Shown: positions 1,466 to 34,379 of the stretch, piece by piece
How positions within the stretch are numbered: position 1 is the first letter of the stretch
Layout: every line of letters begins with the position of its first letter
NCBI GenBank assembly: GCA_903832775.1
Contig: CAILCX010000089.1
Location: forward strand, 1-34,379
DNA length: 34,379 nucleotides
Direction: 5' to 3'
Source of the DNA: an uncultured Methylobacter sp.
Lineage (GTDB): Bacteria; Pseudomonadota; Gammaproteobacteria; Methylococcales; Methylomonadaceae
The notes under the pieces: generated by a model
Seen by the model: only the letters and a program-made list of their open reading frames with translations
What the model was told of the DNA's origin: nothing
Databases searched by the model: none
Program-made: the position numbers and the translations under genes

Positions 1466-2173
1466 ATGCTTAATATTGATAATAATGACGAGCAACAAAG
1501 ACTAGAACTTGCTTCCCGATTAAAAGAAGCGATAGCATCTTTGCCGCGCGGTGGAAAAGTAAGAATTGCAGAGGCGTGTGACATATCTCCAACTGCAATA
1601 ACAGGCTGGATAAAAAATGGTCGGATAGATAAAACCAACATAGCAATAGTTGCAAACATGACCAGTTATGACCTGAACTGGTTAATATCTGGAAAAGGCA
1701 GTAAACACATTACTGACTCCCCCCAACCCTCTATCTTAGATAACAACATTGCAGTTGGTCCAGATAACCGCGGGGATGTGCCTGTTATTAGCTGGGTACA
1801 GGCGGGTGCCTGGTGCGAGGCTATTGATAATTTTAACGTAGGGGATGCTGAGCGCTGGATACCTTGCCCAGTCTCACATAGCAAACATACTTATGCTTTA
1901 AGAGTGCGCGGGGATTCTATGCTAGCGCCCTTTGGTAGCTCAGTTAGCTTTTCAGAAGGCACCTTGATTTACGTTGACCCAGAAGCGCCATTGCTTAGCG
2001 GAAAAAAAGTAATCGCGAAATTGCTAGACAGCAATGAAGTCACTTTTAAAGTCTATCGTGAAGAAGATGGTAAAAAATGGTTATTCCCGCTTAATCCGCA
2101 GTACGACAAAATAGAGTTAGTAGAAGGCATGCACATTTGTGGCGTAGTTATTTTTGCTGGATTTGATGTTTGA
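1466..2173 (+). CDS. cI: cI-type repressor with S24 autopeptidase domain
   Basis: 235 aa. The N-terminal helix-turn-helix (residues about 30-52, ACDISPTAITGWIKNGR) is followed by a linker and a LexA/S24 peptidase domain. The cleavage site is Ala113-Gly114 (VQAGAW), the catalytic Ser151 is in RGDSM and Lys185 in VIAKL. RecA-stimulated self-cleavage after DNA damage should therefore induce the prophage. The start is ATG 1466 with GGAG just upstream. An earlier in-frame start (1382) would run through the operators and is rejected. It is divergent from cro, with the operators between. Confidence 0.93.
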   Translation: MLNIDNNDEQQRLELASRLKEAIASLPRGGKVRIAEACDISPTAITGWIKNGRIDKTNIAIVANMTSYDLNWLISGKGSKHITDSPQPSILDNNIAVGPDNRGDVPVISWVQAGAWCEAIDNFNVGDAERWIPCPVSHSKHTYALRVRGDSMLAPFGSSVSFSEGTLIYVDPEAPLLSGKKVIAKLLDSNEVTFKVYREEDGKKWLFPLNPQYDKIELVEGMHICGVVIFAGFDV

Positions 2174-2234
2174 TGCACTGCTAAGTCTTTTGGTCGTCGC
2201 AGTTGTGGTAAATAAAACAAGTGGATATGATAAA

Positions 2235-3083
2235 ATGAGCAGCCTTAATAACGACCTGAGTATACCCATGACTGAAATTGATGTTTTTCATTTTGATGAC
2301 TCAAAAAAAAGCTTTAATGATTTGTCATATCAGAACGGCTTTACTTATTGGTACGCTTCAGATTTCATGAGGATGCTGGGTTATTCTTCTTTAGACACAT
2401 TTCATAAAGCAATTAACAAGGCCATTGGTACTTGTACAACACTGACCATTGATGTTGTTGACAACTTCAAGCAAGAAAAACGTGAAGTTAATGGCGTAAG
2501 CATTAACGATTACAGATTATCAAGATTTGCTTGTTACTTGGTAGCTATGAACGCAGATACAAGCAAGCCTGAAGTAGCTAGAGCACAAGTATATTTTGCA
2601 TCAGTAGCAGAGGCTTTTAAGCGATACGTTGATGAAGCTGAAGATGTAGAGCGCGTAACTATACGTGAAGAATTATCAGCGCATGAAAAATCACTCAGCG
2701 CAACAGCCGCTAAAGCGGGTGTTGATCAGTATGGTTTATTCCAGAATGCGGGCTATAGGGGCATGTATAACATGAATATTGCACAATTAAAGAAACTAAA
2801 AGGCATTCCTGACAAAAGAACACCTTTAGATTTTATGGGCAAAACAGAATTAGCTGCCAATTTATTTAGAATCACCCAAACTGATCTAAAAATAAGGCAA
2901 GAAGCCATCACAGGACAAAAGCCAGCAGAGCAAGCCGCTGAATCAGTGGGTAAAAAAGTAAGGCAAACCATGCAAGAAATTACAGGTATAAAGCCAGAGA
3001 GCCTACCTGTTCATGAAGATCTTAAAAAAATCAAAAGCGATATAAAAGCCTCTCACAAAGATTTTAAAAAACTAGATAAATAA
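2235..3083 (+). CDS. DinD-like protein with BRO-N domain
   Basis: 282 aa. Residues about 15-125 form a BRO-N domain (YWYASDFMRMLGYSSLDTF). The rest matches E. coli DinD in pattern (GLFQNAGYRGMYNM, then MGKTELAANLFRITQT and KVRQTMQEI). DinD inhibits RecA-mediated strand exchange in E. coli, so here it may modulate the SOS signal that induces the phage; that role is inferred. The start at 2235 is uncertain: 2154 (overlapping cI) and 2268 are alternatives. It is co-oriented with cI in the position of lambda rexAB and so may be expressed in the lysogen. I saw no LexA box upstream. Confidence 0.82.
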   Translation: MSSLNNDLSIPMTEIDVFHFDDSKKSFNDLSYQNGFTYWYASDFMRMLGYSSLDTFHKAINKAIGTCTTLTIDVVDNFKQEKREVNGVSINDYRLSRFACYLVAMNADTSKPEVARAQVYFASVAEAFKRYVDEAEDVERVTIREELSAHEKSLSATAAKAGVDQYGLFQNAGYRGMYNMNIAQLKKLKGIPDKRTPLDFMGKTELAANLFRITQTDLKIRQEAITGQKPAEQAAESVGKKVRQTMQEITGIKPESLPVHEDLKKIKSDIKASHKDFKKLDK

Positions 3084-10672: not shown

Positions 10673-10691
10673 GATTTGTTTATATCTTTGG

Positions 10692-10739
10692 TGGTGGGTC
10701 GTGCGCGATTCGAACGCGCGACCATCGCATTAAAAGTGC
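10692..10739 (-). other. attP core: 3' half of a tRNA-Lys(UUU) gene
   Basis: On the minus strand this reads from the anticodon loop CTTTTAA through the variable loop, a T-arm GCGCG-TTCGAAT-CGCGC, acceptor strand ACGACCC, discriminator A and CCA. This is the E. coli tRNA-Lys layout. The anticodon stem fails to close on its 5' side and no D-arm or 5' acceptor is present, so only the 3' half is here. It is therefore an attP core that restores the host gene on integration. Confidence 0.88.
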
Positions 10740-10887: not shown

Positions 10888-10916
10888 TTGCAATGTGTTT
10901 CGAGAGGTTTTATATT
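10888..10916 (+). promoter_or_regulatory. Promoter of the C4-like RNA / antirepressor unit
   Basis: TTGCAA (10888-10893), 17-bp spacer, TATATT (10911-10916). Predicted +1 is about 10923, so the transcript would begin at once with the perfect hairpin 10924-10939. Confidence 0.7.
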
Positions 10917-10923
10917 ATCCCTG

Positions 10924-10939
10924 CGCTGAACATTCAGCG
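10924..10939 (+). repeat. 5'-end hairpin of the antirepressor leader
   Basis: CGCTGAA-CA-TTCAGCG is a perfect 7-bp stem beginning one base after the predicted transcription start. It may protect the 5' end of the RNA. There is no U-run. Confidence 0.7.
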
Positions 10940-10966
10940 TCGGGTTTGACATCTCGGAATACTCAC

Positions 10967-10999
10967 GGCATAGGCCGCTTAATGCGGTTTTTTTATGCC
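10967..10999 (+). terminator. Terminator / attenuator in the antirepressor leader
   Basis: Inner stem CCGC/GCGG (10975-10978, 10984-10987) is followed by seven Ts (10988-10994). An outer GGCATA/TATGCC pair (10967-10972, 10994-10999) would enclose the whole. It is directly preceded by ACTCACGG, a copy of the sequence targeted by the C4-like RNA further down. Confidence 0.7.
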
Positions 11000-11020
11000 A
11001 TCAATTTAGCTCTTCATATT

Positions 11021-11097
11021 ATGTCGGGCTAGGTAGGCACTCGCAAGAGTGGCTGGTCGTGAGTCCAGTATGTCAACCTGCTTAGTCCGGCTCCATG
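11021..11097 (+). ncRNA. C4-like antisense RNA
   Basis: A long closing stem (11023-11037 with 11077-11091, 15 consecutive pairs including 4 wobbles) encloses two GNRA hairpins: CACTC-GCAA-GAGTG (11038-11051) and CTGGTC-GTGA-GTCCAG (11053-11068). The bases AAGAGT (11045-11050) and CGTGAGT (11058-11064) complement, side by side, all 13 bases of 11123-11135, next to the ribosome binding site of the downstream antirepressor. This matches the logic of C4 RNA in phages P1 and P7, which silences ant. Processing from the longer transcript is assumed. Confidence 0.78.
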
Positions 11098-11144
11098 TTG
11101 ACATCATGTAGTCGGGTAATTAACTCTTACTCACGGAATTTAAC
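11098..11144 (+). promoter_or_regulatory. Antisense target and ribosome binding site of the antirepressor
   Basis: ACTCTT (11123-11128) and ACTCACG (11129-11135) complement the two C4-like loops; the second overlaps the Shine-Dalgarno-like GGAA (11135-11138). TTGACAT (11098-11104) can also pair with ATGTCAA (11070-11076) and would break the closing stem of the C4-like RNA, offering an alternative fold. Confidence 0.7.
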
Positions 11145-11933
11145 ATGAACGCAATCGCACAATCAACATTCAACCCTTCTCTAGCTGTTATCAACGGCAC
11201 TATCAAAACTACCTCTTTAAAAGTTGCCGAGCATTTTGGCAAGCGTCACGACCGAGTTTTACGCGCAATAAATAACCTTGAATGTTCACCAGAATTTACT
11301 GAATCCAATTTTGGGGTGAGTGAATATAAAGACGCATCCGGTAAATCAAACCCATACTACGAAATGACCAAAGACGGCTTCACGTTCTTAGCGATGGGCT
11401 TTACAGGTAAAGAGGCGGCTAAATGGAAAGAAGCCTACATCAATGCCTTTAATAAAATGGCTGAGCAGTTGTCAAGTAATCCTGTACAACTGGAATCCCA
11501 AGATAACTCTAGCCCGTACATAACCGAATTTGAAGCCTATCAATTTAATAAGTCTATAAAAGCTCATTGCAAGAGAGATCGTAAGGCATTTTCTGACGCT
11601 TATAATTGTCTTTATGAATATTATAAAATTACAACTTATAAGCATATTCCAGCTGGCTGCTTAAAAGAAGCTGCTCAAATAATCTGTGGCTTTAATTTAA
11701 TTGATGCGGGGTGTCCACCTGTAACTTCACCAGCATTAACCCATAGTGATGTCATAAAAATGATATTAGAAATACGTGACCAAGACGGTGATGAAACAAT
11801 AGAAAAACTAAGGAATGTTATTAGGCAACAAGAGCTTGAAAAAATAGGATTTGAATTTAAAAATAGACTTTTAAGCGCAAAAATATCAATGACTATTGAT
11901 AATTCAGAATTTATAGACGTTCGATTATCTTAA
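11145..11933 (+). CDS. Rha-family phage antirepressor / regulator
   Basis: 262 aa. Residues about 18-110 are the pRha domain (TTSLKVAEHFGKRHDRVLRAI, then PYYEMTKDGFTFLAMGFTG and KWKEAYINAFNKM). The C-terminal part (residues 120-262) is helical, includes ITEFEAYQFNKSIKAHCKRD and is not recognised. Rha proteins act in lytic or lysogenic switching of lambdoid phages. Its translation should be repressed by the C4-like RNA. It stands alone between attP and the late operon end and is followed by a strong bidirectional terminator. Confidence 0.85.
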   Translation: MNAIAQSTFNPSLAVINGTIKTTSLKVAEHFGKRHDRVLRAINNLECSPEFTESNFGVSEYKDASGKSNPYYEMTKDGFTFLAMGFTGKEAAKWKEAYINAFNKMAEQLSSNPVQLESQDNSSPYITEFEAYQFNKSIKAHCKRDRKAFSDAYNCLYEYYKITTYKHIPAGCLKEAAQIICGFNLIDAGCPPVTSPALTHSDVIKMILEIRDQDGDETIEKLRNVIRQQELEKIGFEFKNRLLSAKISMTIDNSEFIDVRLS

Positions 11934-34044: not shown

Positions 34045-34379
34045 GATAACTTTCCTCAAGCCACTCAAGGCTTACAGCTATGTTGTGGTCAGTTTTTGAT
34101 GTATACTTTCCACGTTGTTGTTGAAACAAACCTGAGTTATTCACTTGTCCGGTGGTGCTCAGGTTTTTTTTTGTAATCTCATCTTCCCATCGCTTGCCGT
34201 TCAGGTAAGTTGACGCATGGGGTATAAATTGCCCATTGTCTTTTTGCCAGTCAAAATCCTGAGTCTTGGCCAAGAGTACAGCCGCGATAATCGTCTGCTG
34301 TAGTTGCTCGTCAGGTTTAATTTTTAACCAGGATTTAAGCGCATCACCTTTGCTTTTCTTTTTCGGATAAGCCAACCAA
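34034..34379 (-). CDS. Phage replication initiator, C-terminal part
   Basis: This continues the gene that starts at 608. The reading frame is open across the join, and the start suggested by a linear reading (TTG at 34375) is an internal Leu codon. The C-terminal domain reads FWLAYPKKKSKGDALKSW, then a Trp/Phe-rich block and STYLNGKRWEDE, which is the common C-terminal module of phage helix-turn-helix replication proteins and probably contacts the helicase loader. The stop at 34034-34036 overlaps the GTG start of that loader by 11 bases, so the two are co-translated. Confidence 0.88.
   Translation of the reverse strand, partial: WLAYPKKKSKGDALKSWLKIKPDEQLQQTIIAAVLLAKTQDFDWQKDNGQFIPHASTYLNGKRWEDEITKKNLSTTGQVNNSGLFQQQRGKYTSKTDHNIAVSLEWLEESYRDR
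34239..34379. repeat. Terminal overlap, right copy (circular assembly)
   Basis: This is the second exact copy of positions 1-141. Bases here should be counted once, giving a unit genome of 34,238 bp. The overlap lies inside the replication initiator gene. Confidence 0.93.

Follow-up and report, generated by a model that had tools for sequence, protein, structure and literature searches.

The C4 RNAs of phages P1 and P7 are processed by RNase P and then act on target mRNAs, the reported processing cue being a GG with which the processed RNA begins, both there and in Acinetobacter, whose C4-like RNAs show processing in RNA-seq (PMC5320573). The passages on pairing in the same source place the segment b′ at the ribosome-binding site and describe a′, which is termed a loop there, as the specificity segment upstream of b′. 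A second line of work concerns the isrK-orf45/STnc1160-anrP region of Gifsy-1, for which control in cis by alternative folds of isrK-orf45 was proposed, the orf45 start codon being important for activation (PMC4825925). An RNA of about 80 nt, STnc1160, has been described as processed from what is the C4 place of Gifsy-1, and co-expressed orf45/STnc1160 RNA as not countering the IsrK-mediated growth arrest but making it more pronounced. By word counts, the main text of PMC4825925 contains neither "C4 RNA" nor "C4 antisense". Among openly licensed PMC papers, isrK together with C4 RNA is found in one review, which in its available text treats both separately, and STnc1160 together with antisense leads to PMC7067206, which names STnc1160 once, in a list.

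Here we show that the small RNA in a temperate phage from an uncultured Methylobacter sp. (GCA_903832775.1, contig CAILCX010000089.1; the entire stretch of 34,379 nucleotides is referred to as the window) is a genuine member of the C4 family. The three-part arrangement of a1b1, C4 and a2b2 is of an already known kind, with its contacts now corrected, and it is likely that the C4 immunity module of the window is complete, resembles those of P1 and Gifsy-1 and has rha as its target gene. The features are as follows.

10888-10916, plus strand: promoter-like pair TTGCAA-17-TATATT, six bases 5′ of the isrK-like match
10923-10994, plus strand: isrK-like/c4-a1b1-like leader RNA with a terminator-like hairpin at its end (Rfam matches under the cut-offs)
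10946-10952, plus strand: a1, TTGACAT, exact 7-mer upstream of C4 complementary to linker a′
10961-10967, plus strand: b1, ACTCACG, exact 7-mer upstream of C4 complementary to the P3 loop segment b′
10972-10994, plus strand: intrinsic-terminator-like hairpin and T run, 3′ of b1 (terminator scan, isrK alignment)
11017-11097, plus strand: C4 antisense RNA (Rfam RF01695), with P1 11023-11037/11077-11091, P2 11038-11051 and P3 11052-11069
11058-11064, plus strand: b′, CGTGAGT, in the P3 loop (cognate pairing)
11070-11076, plus strand: a′, ATGTCAA, in the linker from P3 to P1 (cognate pairing), overlooked in the original prediction
11098-11104, plus strand: a2, TTGACAT, immediately 3′ of C4, complement of a′
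11123-11128, plus strand: ACTCTT, formerly proposed target of P2, judged a chance match by the P2 tests
11129-11135, plus strand: b2, ACTCACG, complement of b′, abutting the Shine-Dalgarno-like GGAA stretch at 11135-11138
11145-11933, plus strand: rha-family gene of 262 aa, presumed silenced (PF09669, phrog_518)

The original prediction of a C4-like RNA was borne out by the Rfam covariance model, which matches 11017-11097 at 48.4 bits (E 1.7e-6) against a cut-off of 45, an excess of just 3.4 bits; this is the sole C4 match detected in the 3.86-Mb assembly to which the window belongs. Covariance alignment and folding give the C4 layout of a P1 stem around P2 and P3 plus a P3-P1 linker. The 15-pair closing stem around two small hairpins is as had been claimed, and it folds at −39.2 kcal/mol (z −5.67), a value equalled by none of 200 shuffles. 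Both hairpins are present, but the GTGA ascribed to P3 as a GNRA loop does not hold up as such, since it is closed by one C-G pair and sits within an 8-nt loop, UCGUGAGU (11057-11064). Where the consensus has the GG cue for RNase P, the window reads GT (ATGTCGGG), with GGG three bases further in; ATGTCGGGC is also found in six C4s of the same genus (L035, L040, L045, L046, L053 and L055).

The segments of C4 that make contacts were located by comparing natural loci. A total of 107 C4 loci with flanks was assembled, 59 from searches of the window's own genome, its genus and a class sample (the window included), a further 40 from other searches and 8 from scans of Rha loci; 103, all with distinct C4 sequences, were parsed into P1, P2, P3 and linker, and L003, L015, L030 and L134, which did not yield P2, P3 and linker, were dropped before the pairing test. 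Each segment was scored by its longest perfect complementary run, once against the flank of its own locus and once against the flanks of every other locus. The linker a′ has a mean run of 6.49 with the first 20 nt after its own C4 and of 3.39 with non-cognate flanks, and the P3 loop b′ gives 7.12 and 4.25 over +20 to +70. In the 180 nt upstream the corresponding values are 6.82 and 4.51 for the linker, and 6.60 and 4.90 for the P3 loop; none of 2000 permutations equalled any of these four excesses. P2, in contrast, showed no cognate excess over these 103 loci, either at +0 to +70 (4.40 against 4.37, equalled in 729 of 2000 permutations) or in the 180 nt upstream (5.15 against 5.14). These results indicate that b′ is the P3 loop, that a′ is the P3-P1 linker and that P2 is without a target. 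The placement of a′ on the linker is a result of the present analysis, which otherwise agrees with the description of C4 pairing in PMC5320573. Because the contact positions are set by more than 100 natural C4 loci, mutational tests can now be aimed at the correct bases.

Applied to the window, this outcome preserves the idea of a C4-like RNA acting at the rha start, which the Rfam match and the conserved loop-target pairing support, but not the P2 contact that had been part of it. The pairing of CGTGAGT with ACTCACG is genuine and had been located correctly, except that b2 overlaps the GGAA by a single base only. The complementarity of AAGAGT (11045-11050) to ACTCTT exists as well, but as P2 lacks a cognate excess we regard it as a chance match, and the supposed cover of 13 contiguous bases loses its P2 half. 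Judged from sequence complementarity, the real second contact is that of the linker ATGTCAA with TTGACAT at 11098-11104; the upstream repeats of both targets, a1 and b1, had likewise been overlooked. The correct contacts are collinear, b′ then a′ in C4 and a2 then b2 in the target, and therefore two separate kissing contacts do not follow from the order of the segments. The window's own pairings are seldom equalled in the foreign flanks (0 of 102 for a2, 1 of 102 for b2, 7 of 102 for a1 and 0 of 102 for b1), and a2 and b2 never arose jointly in 200,000 base-shuffled leaders. Across the genome of the window, the pattern TTGACAT, 5-35 bases, ACTCACG matches nothing but a1b1, a2b2 and, in complement, C4 itself; the pattern read backwards, used as a control, matched once. 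A conserved a2-b2 hairpin was sought in 20 leaders; it is strong in some and absent in others, including the window (−4.2 against a shuffled mean of −3.7), and it is therefore not claimed. Cofolding of C4 with the leader did not predict the loop contacts, which programs for nested structures cannot model, and cofolding of C4 with the isrK-like RNA was uninformative.

The region upstream of C4 resembles the isrK and c4-a1b1 motifs. Full-length alignments were obtained with isrK (RF01394; 42.1 bits, E 5.5e-8, under the cut-off of 50) and, at 10910-10960, with c4-a1b1 (RF03163; E 9.2e-6, likewise under its cut-off). The promoter-like pair and the terminator-like hairpin are weak signals by themselves, with 3 promoter-like sites seen against 1.8 expected in shuffles and 1 terminator-like hairpin against 0.6. 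One or the other of the two motifs lies before C4 above its Rfam cut-off in L064, L146, L147, L149 and L171.

The same order is found in Gifsy-1, where isrK (79.3 bits) and an overlapping c4-a1b1 match (48.1 bits) stand 25 nt ahead of a C4 match of 69.0 bits. Numbered from the isrK start, a numbering with which all eight checked mutant bases of PMC4825925 agree, a1 lies at nt 26-32, C4 at nt 103-186, the linker a′ at nt 158-164 and a2 at nt 192-198. The 45 codons of orf45 begin at nt 107, and slightly more than half of orf45 lies in C4. At positions 34131-34316 of Gifsy-1 (L141), then, the published orf45 start is inside a C4 RNA and IsrK bears both a1 and b1; the target published for isrK-orf45 maps onto a1b1 and a C4 RNA, and STnc1160 is probably the processed C4 of Gifsy-1. 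The mutated bases described in PMC4825925 fall in a1 (G28, G31) and in the C4 linker a′ (C159, C162). According to Table 1 of that paper, anrP translation, at 4 units before mutation, reaches 484 and 926 units with the linker mutations and falls back only in part, to 224 and 327, in the double mutants, as is expected if a′ must also pair with an unchanged a2. It was further reported that IsrK activates anrP in trans while IsrK a1 mutants do not, and that a1 mutated in cis also raises expression, to 93 and 218 units (PMC4825925). The cis effect of a1, the role of the orf45 start codon and the stronger growth arrest indicate that a simple decoy model is incomplete. With this reservation, we lean towards the view that isrK-type leaders are C4 decoys which repeat a1 and b1, are released as stable small RNAs by a terminator lying just ahead of C4 and turn the C4-silenced regulator on, so that Gifsy-1 would be a C4 system and the window its rha version. 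C4 and IsrK, which were described separately, would then become parts of a single testable model for the silencing and release of an antirepressor-type gene by a prophage.

The gene downstream of C4 in the window matches PF09669 (4.6e-33, 114.1 bits, cut-off 29.9) and phrog_518 (5.9e-51). Several PHROG anti-repressor families match it too, and by this association Rha may act as an antirepressor; PADLOC gave no match for Rha and three other ORFs. The protein repressor that had been ascribed to the phage is likely to be present, the ORF at 1382-2173 giving matches to Peptidase_S24 and to a transcriptional-repressor PHROG, and C4 together with an S24-type repressor might provide two layers of immunity. 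An ORF for a Bro-N domain protein (2154-3083, plus strand) overlaps the end of this repressor ORF. Profile searches found integrase, RecT, terminase, head and tail genes on the contig, whose direct terminal repeat of 141 bp (1-141 and 34239-34379) indicates that it is probably a circular phage genome of 34.2 kb. Beside the integrase lies a tRNA 3′ segment (10688-10739) with 98% copies in the host assembly (C20:1-52 and C18:23026-23077), probably the attachment site, which we take to resemble tRNA-Lys. An int-alpA RNA (RF02996, 51.1 bits) is found at 651-717 on the minus strand, and likewise on the Rha-bearing loci L082, L089 and L096. A second Rha-like sequence of the host genome (G000:C44:8433-8627) is interrupted by an in-frame TAG and has probably decayed.

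Rha as the predicted target of C4 is not peculiar to this phage, being found in other proteobacterial genomes, in viral contigs and in named phages; among openly licensed PMC papers, none was found on C4 antisense RNA with Rha. Among Rha relatives on genome contigs, 5 of 11 loci have a C4 (L061-L064 and L070), which lies directly before Rha in L061-L064. On viral contigs it is present in 11 of 25, all 11 over the Rfam cut-off and 10 of them directly before Rha; two of the 25 (L148 and L154) start at the Rha match and could not have shown an upstream C4. A set of 30 Rha loci from the window's family (L071-L100, which includes that of the window) was scanned with Rfam. In four of them, the window, L073, L080 and L083, a C4 immediately precedes Rha, and in L091, L096 and L097 it lies at another place on the locus. 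The remaining 23 gave no C4 at the Rfam-scan threshold, and C4 beside Rha is thus the minority case in that family; L119, a further C4-rha locus of the family, was picked from the family-wide lists of C4 and Rha. The 38 C4s from which our own model, R1, was derived include those of L061-L064, L070, L073, L080 and L083, for which only the Rfam scans are therefore independent.

Altogether 21 C4-rha loci were compared, the window included, with the segments of L151 set by hand and five named phages kept outside the counts. In 19 of them no other gene stands between b2 and Rha; L070 and L155, where another ORF intervenes, were rejected as direct C4-rha loci. An exact 7-base complement of the linker is present at +1 to +8 in all 21, with 13 different linker heptamers, and in 19 of the 19 direct loci, with 12, whereas mismatched combinations of linker and leader give an exact match in only 2 of 402, a pattern showing that linker and target change jointly. 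All but L143 and L151 also have an exact 7-base a1 upstream (19 of 21), and the b2 run is at least 7 in 18 of 21 and 5-6 in L062, L153 and L155. Pairing with the target is thus conserved in relatives for b′ and for the linker a′, but not for P2, across both the 103 loci and these 21.

Five of the six named phages examined have C4 near Rha; Pseudomonas phage F10 has Rha with no C4 match. In Aeromonas phage LPM4 there is no a2 within the first 25 nt after C4, the heptamer being at +37, and in cdtI the b2 run is 6. In the coliphages PhiR47_1, cdtI and mEp460 and Salmonella phage 118970_sal3 (L170, L173, L175 and L174), C4 lies inside the frame annotated as Rha or "transcriptional regulator", which spans a1b1, C4 and leader. 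A start just 3′ of b2 is likelier in these four, and the annotations may therefore carry an N-terminal extension derived from the RNA.

More generally, 86 of the 103 loci have a b2 run of at least 6, and 84 were used for a gene survey, L012 and L025 having no ORF by the rule applied; several ORFs were cut off at the end of the fetched stretch. The first ORF after b2 matched Rha in 9 of the 84, an over-estimate because some loci had been fetched for their adjoining Rha, Bro-N in 8, KilA-N in 5, AntA in 4, ORF6N in 2 and P22_AR_N in 1; a few other Pfam families occurred singly and at least 46 had no Pfam match at E 0.001. Where they can be recognised, the genes other than Rha behind C4 are thus mostly of the antirepressor type. 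Fifteen of the best 25 of 69 PHROG families are described as anti-repressors. C4 is frequent: counting the genome of the window each time, it turned up in 110 of the 237 family genomes, in 15 of the 23 from the genus and in 24 of the 369 in the class sample.

We propose that a single transcript, starting probably near 10922, would first yield a short isrK-like leader RNA that carries the decoy sites a1 and b1 and ends at the putative intrinsic terminator near 10994. Transcripts that read through would give C4 (11017-11097) and the rha message, C4 presumably being excised. Two contacts would follow, of the linker a′ with a2 and of the P3 loop segment b′ with b2, which lies at the ribosome-binding site of rha. 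Both in the lysogen and in relatives that superinfect, these contacts would prevent translation of rha, until the leader RNA, bearing both target sites, binds the same two C4 segments and relieves the block. The sequence relations described here make it very probable that C4 keeps the adjacent Rha protein from being made.

A possible but considerably less probable account is the one given for Gifsy-1, in which a1/b1, C4 and a2/b2 remain in one unprocessed leader whose alternative folds open and close the rha start, making a free antisense RNA unnecessary. It fits with the six pairing segments all lying within 190 nt of one leader (10946-11135), and with the Gifsy-1 experiments described, in which mutating a1 has an effect in cis and two conformers appear on native gels. 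However, P1/P7 C4 acts on its target mRNAs after RNase P processing, Acinetobacter C4-like RNAs appear processed in RNA-seq, and Gifsy-1 makes STnc1160 at the C4 place (PMC5320573 for the first two); cis control may be partly true alongside silencing by C4. It is improbable that C4 has decayed into an RNA that still folds while rha is no longer acted on: the low C4 score and the leader matches under the cut-offs would agree with this, but a1, b1, a2 and b2 retain all their pairings of 7 bases each, which decay would be expected to break early. Least credible of all is the model of the original prediction, with P2 and P3 loops in two kissing contacts over 11123-11135, for although a 6-base P2 match does abut b2, P2 shows no cognate excess over the 103 loci, its run reaches 6 in just 2 of the 21 C4-rha loci (the window and L155), and a match to some P2 6-mer arises by chance in 5.9% of 200,000 base-shuffled versions of the 47-nt leader.

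What reaches beyond this phage is the recurrence of C4 with Rha, C4 repeatedly preceding Rha-type genes and not only the P1-type ant, together with the view that IsrK belongs to a C4 system. Among described systems, P4 CI RNA with seqA and seqC also has copies of its target on both sides of the antisense RNA, upstream and downstream, but it is described as acting on transcription termination (PMC4825925). The c4-a1b1 motif (RF03163), as given in the table of PMC2864571, shares with the window the repetition of C4 targets upstream of C4, although the window scores only 29.7 bits against the cut-off of 46.7. Gifsy-1 has in common with it an isrK-like leader and terminator followed by C4 and a regulator gene, in the order a1, a′, a2. 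It differs in that its 45-codon frame begins in C4 and is coupled to anrP, whereas the rha open frame of 269 codons begins just 7 codons 5′ of the ATG and hence does not read through C4. The P1/P7 C4 (RF01695) is matched in fold and family score, in b′ at the ribosome-binding site, in the upstream target of a′ and in the position before an antirepressor-type gene; the window differs from it at the 5′ edge of the P1 stem, where it has GT and not GG, and in its predicted target, which is rha, whereas the P1 c4 entry in PMC10695390 lists icd and ant mRNA.
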